Origin: Halogeometricum sp. S3BR5-2
GTDB taxonomy: Archaea; Halobacteriota; Halobacteria; Halobacteriales; Haloferacaceae
NCBI RefSeq assembly: GCF_031624635.1
Contig: NZ_JAMQOQ010000001.1
Coordinates: 1 to 64,000 of the forward strand
Direction of reading: 5' to 3'
Length of the DNA stretch: 64,000 nt
The translations under genes were made by a program, and so were the position numbers. Every line of letters starts with the position of its first letter. Position 1 is the first letter of the stretch. Under the pieces are notes generated by a model. That model ran no database searches. It saw only the letters and a list, made by a program, of their open reading frames with translations, and had not been told where the DNA came from. Positions 1 to 41,779 of the stretch are shown in pieces.

Positions 1-121
1 GTGTCTGCAGGGTAGCTTGGCCACGTGTTACTGAGCTATCTGCTGCGAGTCTGAACTCGCGCAACTAGCATGGCTAAGTCGGACTCCGATAGCAATGGCC
101 TCCGGCAGGATCAACCGGAAT
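1..121 (-). rRNA. 16S ribosomal RNA, 5' end (partial)
   Basis: Read on the minus strand the segment begins ATTCCGGTTGATCCTGCC and continues with the conserved archaeal 16S start (GGAGGCC, then the helix around the AACACGTGG block). Only the first 121 nt are present; the gene runs off the left edge. Mature 5' end placed at 121 from the universal ATTCCGG start. It is transcribed leftward, away from the origin at about 4 kb and divergently from tbp. Confidence 0.97.
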
Positions 122-845: not shown

Positions 846-1406
846 ATGAGTGCGCCGGCAGACTCCATCGAGATTCAGAACGTAGTCGCATCGACCGGAA
901 TCGGACAGGAACTCGACCTCGAAGCACTCGCGGACGACCTCCCCGGTGCCGACTTCAACCCCGACAACTTCCCCGGTCTGGTCTACCGGACGCAGGACCC
1001 GAAGGCGGCCGCCCTCATCTTTCGGTCCGGAAAGATCGTCTGCACGGGCGCGAAGAGCATCGACGACGTCCACGAGGCACTGGGCATCATCTTCGACAAA
1101 CTCCGCGGGCTGAACATCCCCGTCGACGAGGACCCCGAGATAACCGTTCAGAACATCGTCTCCAGCGCGGACCTCGGACACAACCTCAACCTGAACGCTC
1201 TCGCAATCGGCCTCGGCCTCGAAGACGTCGAGTACGAACCGGAGCAGTTCCCCGGTCTCGTCTACCGGATGGACGAACCCGAAGTCGTCATCCTCCTGTT
1301 CGGTTCCGGTAAGATAGTCATCACGGGCGGAAAACAGACCGACGACGCCGAGACGGCCGTCGTCGAAATCGTAAAGCGCATCGACAACCTCGGACTGCTC
1401 GACTGA
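846..1406 (+). CDS. tbp: TATA-box-binding protein
   Basis: Basal transcription factor that binds and bends the archaeal TATA box and recruits TFB and RNA polymerase. The 186-aa product is the usual size and shows the two direct repeats that form the saddle (about residues 8-88 and 97-178). Each repeat carries FPGLVYR followed by a (F/L)xSGKIVxTG block. The ATG is placed from the TATA box 28 bp upstream; a TTG four codons earlier is less likely. It is divergent from the rRNA operon. Haloarchaea often encode several TBPs; this one has the acidic tail residues of the general type. Confidence 0.97.
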   Translation: MSAPADSIEIQNVVASTGIGQELDLEALADDLPGADFNPDNFPGLVYRTQDPKAAALIFRSGKIVCTGAKSIDDVHEALGIIFDKLRGLNIPVDEDPEITVQNIVSSADLGHNLNLNALAIGLGLEDVEYEPEQFPGLVYRMDEPEVVILLFGSGKIVITGGKQTDDAETAVVEIVKRIDNLGLLD

Positions 1407-2500: not shown

Positions 2501-3706
2501 TCACGTTCCGACGTTTTCGGTCAGTACGTCCCTGACGACTTGCGGGTCTTCGAGCAGTTGGTGTTTCGTGTAACTCCCCTCGGCGCTCCCGCCGCTGTGT
2601 TTCGACTGCTCGATGATGTCGAGGAACGCGTGTTCTTTCAGCAGGTCGCGGACCCGCCTGAGCGACAGGCTGTCGGAGCCCTGACCCGTGCAGATGTTTT
2701 CGTACACCTCGTAGACACGACTGGTCCGGAAGCCGTCCTTGCGGTCGTTCGAGAGCGACAGCATCGCGAGGGCTTGGAGGACGTACCGGGAGTGCGGCGT
2801 CGACCCGCGGATGAGTTCCCGGAAGCGGTCGGTTTCGGCCCGTTCGCGGGCCTGCGTAACGAACTCCTCGCGAACGGTCGAGGCGGCCGTCGACTGCGCT
2901 ATCTCGCCGGCGTAGCGGAGGATGTCGATGGCCTTCCGAGCGTCGCCGTGTTCCCGCGCGGCCAGCGCCGCGGCCCGCGGAATCGTCGACGCGTCCAGCA
3001 CGCCGTCGCGGAAGGCGTCGCTGCGGGCCTGCATGATGTCACGGAGTTGGTTCGCGTCGTACGGCGGGAAGACGAACTCGCGTTCGCAGAGACTGGATTT
3101 GACCCGTTCGTCCATCCGGTCTTTGTACTGTATCTTGTTGCTGATTCCGATGACGCCCAGTTTGCACTGGTCTATCTTACCGGCCTCGCCCGCCCGCGAG
3201 AGCTGCATCAGGATGTCGTCGTCGTTCAACTTGTCTATCTCGTCGAGGATGATGAGAACGACGTCGTACTGCGCGTCGAGGATGCGCCAGAGGCGTTTGT
3301 AGTATGTCGACGTGCTGAGACCTTTGTCGGGGACCTTGATTCCGGTCACCTCCGACCGGTTGACGCTGTCGGCGATGGTCTGGACCGCTTGGGTCTCGGT
3401 CGTGTCCTGCGCGCAGTCCACGTAGGCGAAGGTCGCTTTCACCGCCTCCTCGCTCGCGGTTTCGACGAGGCGCTGTGAGACGTACTTCGCGCAGAGCGAC
3501 TTTCCGGTACCCGTCTTTCCGTAGATGAGGACGTTGCTCGGACTCTGCCCGAAGATGGCGGGGTTGACCGCCGTCGCGAGGTTGGATATCTCGTCGTCGC
3601 GGCCGACGATGCGGCCCTCGCCCGGCAGGTGGTTTATCTCGAGGAGTTCCTTGTTGGCGAAGATGGGGTCCTCCCGAGTGAAGAGGTCGTCGCTGGCGTT
3701 CGGCAT
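2501..3706 (-). CDS. orc1: Orc1/Cdc6 replication initiator
   Basis: AAA+ origin-recognition ATPase that binds ORB repeats and loads MCM. The 401-aa product has Walker A (GKTGTGKS, about residues 63-70), Walker B (VVLIILDE, about 149-156), an arginine-finger-type region and a C-terminal winged helix. The open frame extends 80 codons further upstream, but that extension reads through two origin repeats, so I start at the ATG at 3706 (MPNASDDLF, a typical haloarchaeal start). It lies immediately beside the repeat-rich origin. The nearest repeat is only 9 bp upstream of its start codon, which suggests autoregulation. Confidence 0.95.
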   Translation of the reverse strand: MPNASDDLFTREDPIFANKELLEINHLPGEGRIVGRDDEISNLATAVNPAIFGQSPSNVLIYGKTGTGKSLCAKYVSQRLVETASEEAVKATFAYVDCAQDTTETQAVQTIADSVNRSEVTGIKVPDKGLSTSTYYKRLWRILDAQYDVVLIILDEIDKLNDDDILMQLSRAGEAGKIDQCKLGVIGISNKIQYKDRMDERVKSSLCEREFVFPPYDANQLRDIMQARSDAFRDGVLDASTIPRAAALAAREHGDARKAIDILRYAGEIAQSTAASTVREEFVTQARERAETDRFRELIRGSTPHSRYVLQALAMLSLSNDRKDGFRTSRVYEVYENICTGQGSDSLSLRRVRDLLKEHAFLDIIEQSKHSGGSAEGSYTKHQLLEDPQVVRDVLTENVGT

Positions 3707-3714
3707 ACTACAGG

Positions 3715-3735
3715 ACACCACGTTTCCGGTGAAAT
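3715..3735 (-). repeat. ORB-like repeat, copy 1
   Basis: On the minus strand it reads TTTCACCGGAAACGTGGTGT. It sits 9 bp upstream of the orc1 start codon and overlaps its promoter position. The identical 21-mer recurs at 41759-41779. Confidence 0.85.
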
Positions 3736-3762
3736 GGCTTGTCATCTTCAGGTCCGACACAC

Positions 3763-3782
3763 ACACCGGGTTTCCGGTGAAC
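3763..3782 (-). repeat. ORB-like repeat, copy 2
   Basis: Minus-strand copy matching the consensus TTCACCGGAAACCCGGTGTG. It has the same orientation as copy 1, about 48 bp away, and lies on the orc1 side of the AT-rich element. Confidence 0.88.
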
Positions 3783-3826
3783 GGCCCCACACCCGGGGGT
3801 AGGTCCAGTCGAAACGGGGGAAGAGG

Positions 3827-3847
3827 TTCACCGGAAACCCGGTGTGT
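3827..3847 (+). repeat. ORB-like repeat, copy 3
   Basis: Plus-strand copy with the full consensus, inverted relative to copies 1 and 2. The core contains the dyad CACCGG-AAAC-CCGGTG. Confidence 0.88.
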
Positions 3848-4195
3848 TCGGCGGCGTCCTCGCTCTCCGTGGAGGGACGAAGAGGGGGAATCGTCGCGGA
3901 GAAGGTAGCGAAGGTATCGGGGCGAGTGAAGCGCTCGGGACTCCACGAGAAGCCGCGTGACCGCAAGAGAAGCCGCGTGACGACGAGAGAAGAGTCGAAC
4001 CGGAACTCGAAGGAAGCAGTCATCTCGGACGAGAGCCGAGTCGACGACACCCTCGTGGACCGGATGCGCGAGCGGTAAGTCCTCCCCAGTCGGACGCGGC
4101 GAACGAAATCGAGCGTCTCACTCGCCGAGTCGGTGAACGCCTTCCCTTCTCCTGTAGTCGGTTCGAGTATCGAACCTCTAATCTCTTGCGAGTGT

Positions 4196-4255
4196 ATCAA
4201 TGGACGTTTACACTAAACAACTATTTAATAGTTGTTATAGTAGTCGTTCTAGATG
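4196..4255. other. AT-rich candidate duplex-unwinding element
   Basis: The only AT-rich block in the origin region. It includes TTTACACTAAACAAC and a perfect palindrome of 9-bp arms, AACAACTAT and ATAGTTGTT, around a 3-nt TTA centre (4216-4236). It is flanked by ORB-like repeats at 3.7-3.85 kb and 4.39-4.82 kb. It is the best candidate for initial melting, inferred from composition and position. Confidence 0.7.
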
Positions 4256-4394
4256 CCGGTGGTGGCCTCCGCCACGTGTGACCCCTGATGGTAAAATCGG
4301 GAGAAAAAGGACGATTAGGGGAGTCGGGAGTTGTCCGGGCGTCCCGGACCGATCGGGTCCACGACGGAGTACCGTCACCGTTCGAGCCGAACCG

Positions 4395-4414
4395 TTTCAC
4401 CGGAAACCCGGTGT
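4395..4414 (+). repeat. ORB-like repeat, copy 4
   Basis: Plus-strand full-consensus copy, the first on the far side of the AT-rich element. Confidence 0.88.
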
Positions 4415-4481
4415 GACCACGACTCACACGAGGTCTGAGCTATCTGCCTCTCCGTAGCTGTCATCCCGTCGAACGGGGAAA

Positions 4482-4500
4482 TACACCGGAAATGGGGTGC
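4482..4500 (+). repeat. ORB-like repeat, copy 5 (degenerate)
   Basis: TACACCGGAAATGGGGTGC keeps CACCGGAAA but replaces the CCCGGTGTG half with a GGGGTG run. That run is closer to the G-string of classical archaeal ORBs. Confidence 0.65.
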
Positions 4501-4574
4501 GAACCACGGGTTCGAGAAATTCCCCGTTGCTCGCAGATTGGCCTCCCCGTGACCCTCGCCTCCCGTCGACCCGA

Positions 4575-4595
4575 TTCACCGGAAACCCGGTGTGT
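4575..4595 (+). repeat. ORB-like repeat, copy 6
   Basis: Full-consensus plus-strand copy preceded by ACCCGA. The 16-nt context ACCCGATTCACCGGAA recurs at the isolated site near 56.25 kb. Confidence 0.88.
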
Positions 4596-4633
4596 CCGCG
4601 TCTCACGGAACCCCGCCGTCGCTTCGCGTCGTC

Positions 4634-4653
4634 TCACCGGAAATCCGGTGTGT
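4634..4653 (+). repeat. ORB-like repeat, copy 7
   Basis: Plus-strand copy with one substitution in the spacer (AAATCC instead of AAACCC), 39 bp after copy 6. Confidence 0.85.
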
Positions 4654-4710
4654 CTCCGCCACCACCCGTCCGCAGTCGACGGGTCCGTCACCCCGAGACC
4701 GCCCGCGCCG

Positions 4711-4730
4711 TTTCACCGGAAACACGGTGT
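4711..4730 (+). repeat. ORB-like repeat, copy 8
   Basis: Plus-strand copy with AAACAC in the spacer; otherwise it keeps the TTTCACCGG and CGGTGT halves. Confidence 0.85.
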
Positions 4731-4801
4731 CCGCCCGCGCGTCGGACTCCCGTCCGCCCTCTCGGTTCGACCGTCGCCCTAGGTCGGTGTGGGAGACACT
4801 C

Positions 4802-4822
4802 GTTCACCGGAAACCCGGTGTG
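4802..4822 (+). repeat. ORB-like repeat, copy 9
   Basis: Full-consensus plus-strand copy, the last of the origin cluster and 107 bp before the start of the next gene. Confidence 0.88.
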
Positions 4823-4928
4823 TCTCTCCGAGACGGCCGAGGAGCGCCGCGTCGCTCCCGACGGGAGACTACCCGGCCGGCGGCGCGCGTCCGTCAGTTC
4901 GATAAGGGGTCCCGCCCTACGGTCGGTG

Positions 4929-41635: not shown

Positions 41636-41709
41636 GGGCCGGTAGCTCAGTTAGGGAGAGCGTCTGACTCTTAATCAGACGGTCGGGGGTTCAACTCCCT
41701 CCCGGCCCG
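41636..41709 (+). tRNA. tRNA-Lys (anticodon CTT)
   Basis: 74-nt cloverleaf: acceptor GGGCCGG/CCGGCCC, D-arm GCTCAGTTAGGGAGAGC, anticodon stem GTCTGA/TCAGAC with loop CTCTTAA giving CTT, T-arm GGGGGTTCAACTCCC, discriminator G. A TATA-like TTTACTTA lies about 30 bp upstream. No intron, no encoded CCA. Confidence 0.96.
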
Positions 41710-41731
41710 CTTCACTTCTCTTCGGAACCAC

Positions 41732-41749: not shown

Positions 41750-41758
41750 TCGGCCGAC

Positions 41759-41779
41759 ACACCACGTTTCCGGTGAAAT
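41759..41779 (-). repeat. Isolated ORB-like site (identical to origin copy 1)
   Basis: The 21-mer is exactly the one at 3715-3735 beside orc1, 38 kb away. It lies between tRNA-Lys and the paralogue at 41976, in a gap (41710-41975) with no gene. Confidence 0.8.

Follow-up and report, generated by a model that had tools for sequence, protein, structure and literature searches.

A predicted orc5-type replication origin of Halogeometricum with its own class of initiator boxes and conserved single boxes elsewhere on the chromosome

The window analysed here is a single 64,000-nucleotide stretch of Halogeometricum DNA. At one end, the 5' end of a 16S rRNA gene, a gene for the TATA-box-binding protein (TBP), a gene whose product had no match in an NCBIfam search, an orc1/cdc6 initiator gene and a repeat region follow one another. 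The features on which the analysis is built, including a tRNA gene and one additional box found far from the repeat region, are as follows.

1..121, (-) strand: 5' end of the 16S rRNA gene (Rfam SSU_rRNA_archaea, 96.5 bits), transcribed away from the origin
846..1406, (+) strand: TBP gene (NCBIfam NF001595, E 4e-105)
2501..3706, (-) strand: orc1/cdc6 initiator gene (TIGR02928, 434 bits), orthologue of Haloferax volcanii orc5 (HVO_1725)
3714..3733, (-) strand: Box 1, at about -27 from the orc start codon, a probable autoregulatory copy
3762..3781, (-) strand: Box 2, from the motif scan
3827..3846, (+) strand: Box 3, on the orc side but facing the other way from Boxes 1 and 2, in a position conserved in several genera
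4155..4254, no strand: AT-rich segment (best 100 bp, 64% AT), a probable unwinding element
4216-4236, no strand: palindrome AACAACTATTTAATAGTTGTT, inside the AT-rich segment, a genus-level feature
4396..4415, (+) strand: Box 4, where the distal array begins
4482..4501, (+) strand: Box 5, degenerate, with 3 mismatches
4575..4594, (+) strand: Box 6, from the motif scan
4633..4652, (+) strand: Box 7, from the motif scan
4712..4731, (+) strand: Box 8, from the motif scan
4803..4822, (+) strand: Box 9, from the motif scan
41636..41710, (+) strand: tRNA-Lys(CTT) gene (ARAGORN), its 3' end separated by 47 bases from the satellite box downstream
41758..41777, (-) strand: satellite box of site B, an exact match 37 kb from the origin, syntenic in six genomes

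When the window was scanned for TTCACCGGAAACNNGGTGTG allowing up to 3 mismatches, 10 matches were obtained against 0.03 +/- 0.17 in dinucleotide shuffles. Nine of them are the repeats that a first-pass annotation had described next to orc1: all are present as 20-base boxes at 3714-4822, and their orientations had been given correctly, copies 1 and 2 on the (-) and copies 3-9 on the (+) strand. The tenth, at 41758-41777(-), falls outside 3707-4928. Copy 3 had been singled out as an exception; its orientation was read properly but it is no anomaly, because boxes at -141(-), -75(+) and -27(+), counted from the orc start, are a recurrent set, seen in Haloferax, Haloprofundus and Halogeometricum among others. 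On the far side, distal boxes face one way in 251 cases and the opposite way in 6 (257 in total), and the AT-richest 100 bp has boxes on either side in 74/79 loci. As for the AT-rich palindrome, it is real, but among the loci examined it was seen only in Halogeometricum, and it was therefore rejected as a general element.

Each of the 81 loci has one copy that begins 23-37 nt ahead of the matched orc start. H. volcanii transcripts are mostly leaderless (PMC3986360), so that a box at about -27 of orc probably covers the core promoter, which suggests that it autoregulates orc. The copy nearest the orc start (3714-3733 in the window, and its counterparts in relatives) usually ends in GGTGTC and not in GGTGTG, a difference kept across many genera; it is perhaps a weaker site.

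The class consensus is TTCACCGGAAACnnGGTGTG, derived from 531 copies with at most 2 mismatches at 81 orthologous loci. Its nn pair is GT in 168 copies, CC in 148, AC in 104 and something else in 111. Since the inner CC is thus unconstrained, the box is polar and symmetric only in CACC...GGTG, its direction being given by the GGAAAC core. The dyad CACCGG-AAAC-CCGGTG, proposed at first as the defining feature, fits only the copies with nn = CC and ignores the asymmetry of the core; a 6-bp dyad was accordingly rejected as the functional unit, the nn pair being free among the 531 copies and variable at most satellites too. Also, copy 5 with its GGGGTG had been taken for a classical-type variant. 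It is a degenerate copy with 3 mismatches, and with nn = GG in only 4/531 copies a classical sub-class was discarded. The idea that the box carries another sequence in place of the usual G-run survives in part: the run is shortened, GG compared with GAAGGGGTGGGG at the oriC1-type boxes of this genome.

Canonical haloarchaeal ORBs have an extended G-string after the GAAAC core, whereas this class has only the GG of nnGGTGTG. All H. volcanii origins have been described as containing G-strings (PMC3528665), a point against the explanation that we favour below, and for Haloarcula hispanica oriC1 the G-string has been reported as essential (PMC3528665, PMC3936714). Compared with those reports, the class either departs from the rule or holds a minimal form of it, and rules derived from oriC1 do not cover the orc5 box. 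It may well be that the H. volcanii oriC2 box is already in print, in the origin-mapping paper (Norais 2007) or in ORB-logo supplements.

Which origin is this? The window Orc protein shares 98-99% identity with its counterparts in Halogeometricum limi and H. pallidum and 93% with those of the Haloferax loci. The published H. volcanii orc5 deletion primers (PMC6063281) match the Haloferax loci, engineered sites and a few mismatches aside (MHorc5R1 shows 2 mismatches in three species, and MHorc5F2 matches exactly over its 3' part), and the window gene is therefore the orthologue of orc5 (HVO_1725). Deletion of orc5 in H. volcanii abolishes initiation at oriC2 (PMC6063281), and Haloferax mediterranei has three active chromosomal origins, at one of which, oriC3, the orthologue cdc6G is found (PMC4595724). 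With the oriC2-orc5 (HVO_1725) origin of H. volcanii and the oriC3-cdc6G origin of H. mediterranei the locus shares the orthologous initiator and the proximity of an rRNA operon, which lies 6 kb from H. volcanii oriC2 (PMC2841640) and is likewise near the origin in the window. The TBP neighbour, the box class and the layout of the Haloferax oriC2/oriC3 loci match as well, although the window locus has more CC-type boxes and its origin activity is predicted. Comparison of sequences thus makes it very probable that this is a chromosomal orc5-type origin, orthologous to H. volcanii oriC2 and H. mediterranei oriC3 and equipped with its own box class; this degree of confidence covers the origin and the box assignment and is separate from the role of the satellites. 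The origin predicted beside orc1 in the first-pass annotation is in this way supported by its orthology to active origins (PMC6063281, PMC4595724), and it would be a further member of a known family.

It is very improbable that this genome's copy of the origin lies dormant and keeps its repeats for another reason. Species do differ in origin use, oriC4 is dormant in wild-type H. mediterranei, and this genome contains about 13 orc genes besides oriC1-type boxes at another place; against this, the orthologous origins fire in two Haloferax species (PMC6063281, PMC4595724), the layout is conserved among loci, and the skew of a relative switches at the locus. In 400 kb of that relative, G083, whose chromosome is one 3.0-Mb contig and was used for the skew analysis, GC skew changes sign, positive to negative, no more than about 10-20 kb from the locus; haloarchaeal GC skew has been described as inverted (PMC2841640). 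An identity with oriC1 was rejected, because the oriC1-type boxes of this genome were found only on contig C5.

The TBP gene is a neighbour of the origin in nearly all Haloferacales loci and is missing from those of Natrialbales and Halobacteriales. In several genomes of the latter two orders (L105-L124) the orc5-type system is found on plasmids or a second chromosome, and many of these loci carry extra boxes downstream of orc, resembling the H. hispanica oriC2D region. The Halogeometricum genome itself encodes about 13 orc1/cdc6 proteins (loci L021-L035).

The first-pass annotation had also suggested that the repeats form an initiator-specific ORB group. Among 60 genomes of the family, exact boxes occur in 29/29 genomes with the orc orthologue and in 1/31 without it (Fisher p = 5e-16), and the reversed pattern gave no matches. 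The orthologous group was delimited at 82% identity or more (82-100% within it), while the next relatives, including the best ones in the other 31 genomes, reach 58% or less. Most other orc genes of the Halogeometricum genome adjoin different, unrelated repeats. This co-occurrence supports an initiator-specific box, an idea that is not new, since origin families with family-specific ORBs were proposed by Wu et al. in 2012 (PMC3528665). The single exception, genome G099 (L159, C4:39837), has one exact box and no orc5 orthologue, possibly a relic after initiator loss. How archaea with several origins and several Orc proteins pair each origin with its own initiator, and prevent it from refiring, is the question to which the orc5 box speaks: it and its initiator form a clean pair, present together and absent together across genera.

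Outside the array, the box is present as satellites. At 2 mismatches or fewer, the genome has 9 matches to the CC form, 7 in the array and 2 single distant ones, and both copies outside the array are exact (C1:41758, in the window, and C1:187618). Genome-wide dispersal, which had been named as an outcome that would count against the origin, is not what is seen: random dispersal was rejected, because besides the array there are only single syntenic satellites. About 70 satellite places were collected in relatives and grouped by common flanking sequence, which gave the following recurrent sites.

Site A: gyrA against arginase, 9 genomes
Site B: by tRNA-Lys, 6 genomes
Site C: 3' end of a CDC48-family or prenyl-diphosphate-synthase gene against the 3' end of bcp, 20 genomes
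Site D: by ndk, 6 genomes
Site E: isopentenyl phosphate kinase against an RNase Z-like gene, 3 genomes
Site F: by a fumarylacetoacetate-hydrolase-family gene, 4 genomes

One satellite is also found in three Haloferax species; some genomes (G028, G093) have none at 1 mismatch or fewer. When the box is kept in register, the 18 fixed positions of satellites are 94-98% identical between genomes, identity at the nn pair is 27-67% (100% at site E, known from three genomes), while most flanking bases are near 30%. Only about 0.0001 exact and 0.006 one-mismatch matches are expected per genome. With the box conserved, the flanks diverged and so few matches expected by chance, satellite boxes are under selection. 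Their binding by Orc, which the co-occurrence would imply, and their function are what we infer. Satellites appear to be undescribed: no description of them was found in the papers searched.

In six single-contig chromosomes (3.0-4.25 Mb), all 12 satellites are found at distances of 53-560 kb from the origin, none beyond 26% of the half-chromosome (seven distinct sites, p about 9e-5), and sometimes they lie on both sides of it, at 181 and 200 kb in G083 and at 195 and 212 kb in G101. For systems carried by a second chromosome or a plasmid, completely sequenced records place 12/12 (Halovivax), 7/7 (Natronorubrum bangense) and 8/9 (Salinibaculum) boxes on the replicon of the origin. Gene orientation, assigned with a simple composition-based caller and family searches, puts 6/7 classifiable sites (A-E and one between YchF and an aminotransferase) between 3' ends, in convergent gaps, which account for about a fifth of intergenic DNA; the count is approximate given the crude gene calling. 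The strand of satellites relative to the origin, judged by eye, is mixed and follows no clear rule.

A model of how these elements could work together is as follows. Orc5 would bind its own polar box class on both sides of the AT-rich segment, which, by homology, would open and receive MCM. Free Orc5 would be held down, and the initiator limited and autoregulated, by the distal boxes that share one orientation together with the box at about -27; the single satellites, to judge from co-occurrence, would be further sites for the same initiator. Being copied by forks soon after firing, they would double and take up more Orc5. Alternatively, satellites might mark the origin domain for another factor. 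In either case, convergent gaps would be the places where a bound protein least disturbs promoters. Initiator boxes that lie outside the core origin and are copied early are what is expected of a titration locus, and satellites 53-560 kb off correspond to it. Nevertheless, two or three satellites compared with about nine array boxes would make a small reservoir, and we regard an initiator reservoir as tentative, a little short of an even chance.

What else could keep single boxes in place? A parS-like role, in which satellites mark the origin domain so that chromosomes segregate or fold and do not retain initiator, would agree with satellites that are few, single, short, intergenic, origin-proximal and sometimes on both flanks of the origin (G083, G101), but its partner protein would be hypothetical, and we consider it unlikely. 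Orc proteins can be regulators, as Sulfolobus Orc1-2 is in the DNA-damage response (PMC9738581), and the -27 copy at orc looks regulatory. Satellites at which Orc represses or activates neighbouring genes would follow this precedent, and site F is near the apparent start of a tandem gene; however, sites A-E, like the YchF/aminotransferase site, are bordered by 3' ends and not by promoters, and the neighbours are functionally unrelated, which leaves transcriptional regulation quite improbable. That satellites are functionless relics of former origins or transposed arrays is hardly credible. Orc-linked origins do move between replicons (PMC4441112) and G099 retains its box without the orc, but the remaining 30/31 orc-less genomes have no box, no orc remnant was noticed at satellite sites, and relics would not be expected to keep a box at 94-98% identity within flanks near 30%. 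Taking initiator control and domain marking together, it seems an even call that the conserved, single, origin-proximal satellite ORBs of convergent gaps control firing or organise the origin domain.

Bacterial datA and parS are initiator or origin-domain sites located outside the origin yet near it. By analogy, satellite ORBs might equally well prove to be, or not to be, a dispersed archaeal replication-control network comparable to datA or parS; satellites differ from these in being single copies of an archaeal Orc box in convergent gaps. Another parallel is H. hispanica oriC2D (oriC2-cdc6E), which also has many extra initiator boxes near the origin, proposed to titrate the initiator (PMC3936714). 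In the window, by contrast, the array is upstream of orc and within the origin, and a downstream array exists only in Natrialbales-type relatives. The synteny of satellites makes a model of dispersed control testable in a tractable organism.

Some satellites show additional features. At site C (L139, L143, L148, L151, L155, L176 and others), a partly conserved CTAGTTG...AGTTTAT is found just upstream of the box near bcp. L181 and L188, from Halohasta and Halorubrum, have near-identical flanks around a one-mismatch box, which suggests a recent transfer between genera.

The oriC1 family has in common with the window origin the ORB pairs around an AT-rich segment beside orc and the GAAAC core, and differs in its long G-string and, here, in its location on contig C5, where the boxes at C5:269.5-269.7 kb read TTCCAnnnGAAACGAAGGGGTGGGG. 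The oriC1-type boxes of that contig are at 266730, 269518, 269716, 295581 and 295628. Single copies of the oriC1 type are thus also found at a distance from oriC1, 26 kb in this genome and 21-58 kb in several relatives, and satellite boxes may therefore be general to haloarchaeal origins.
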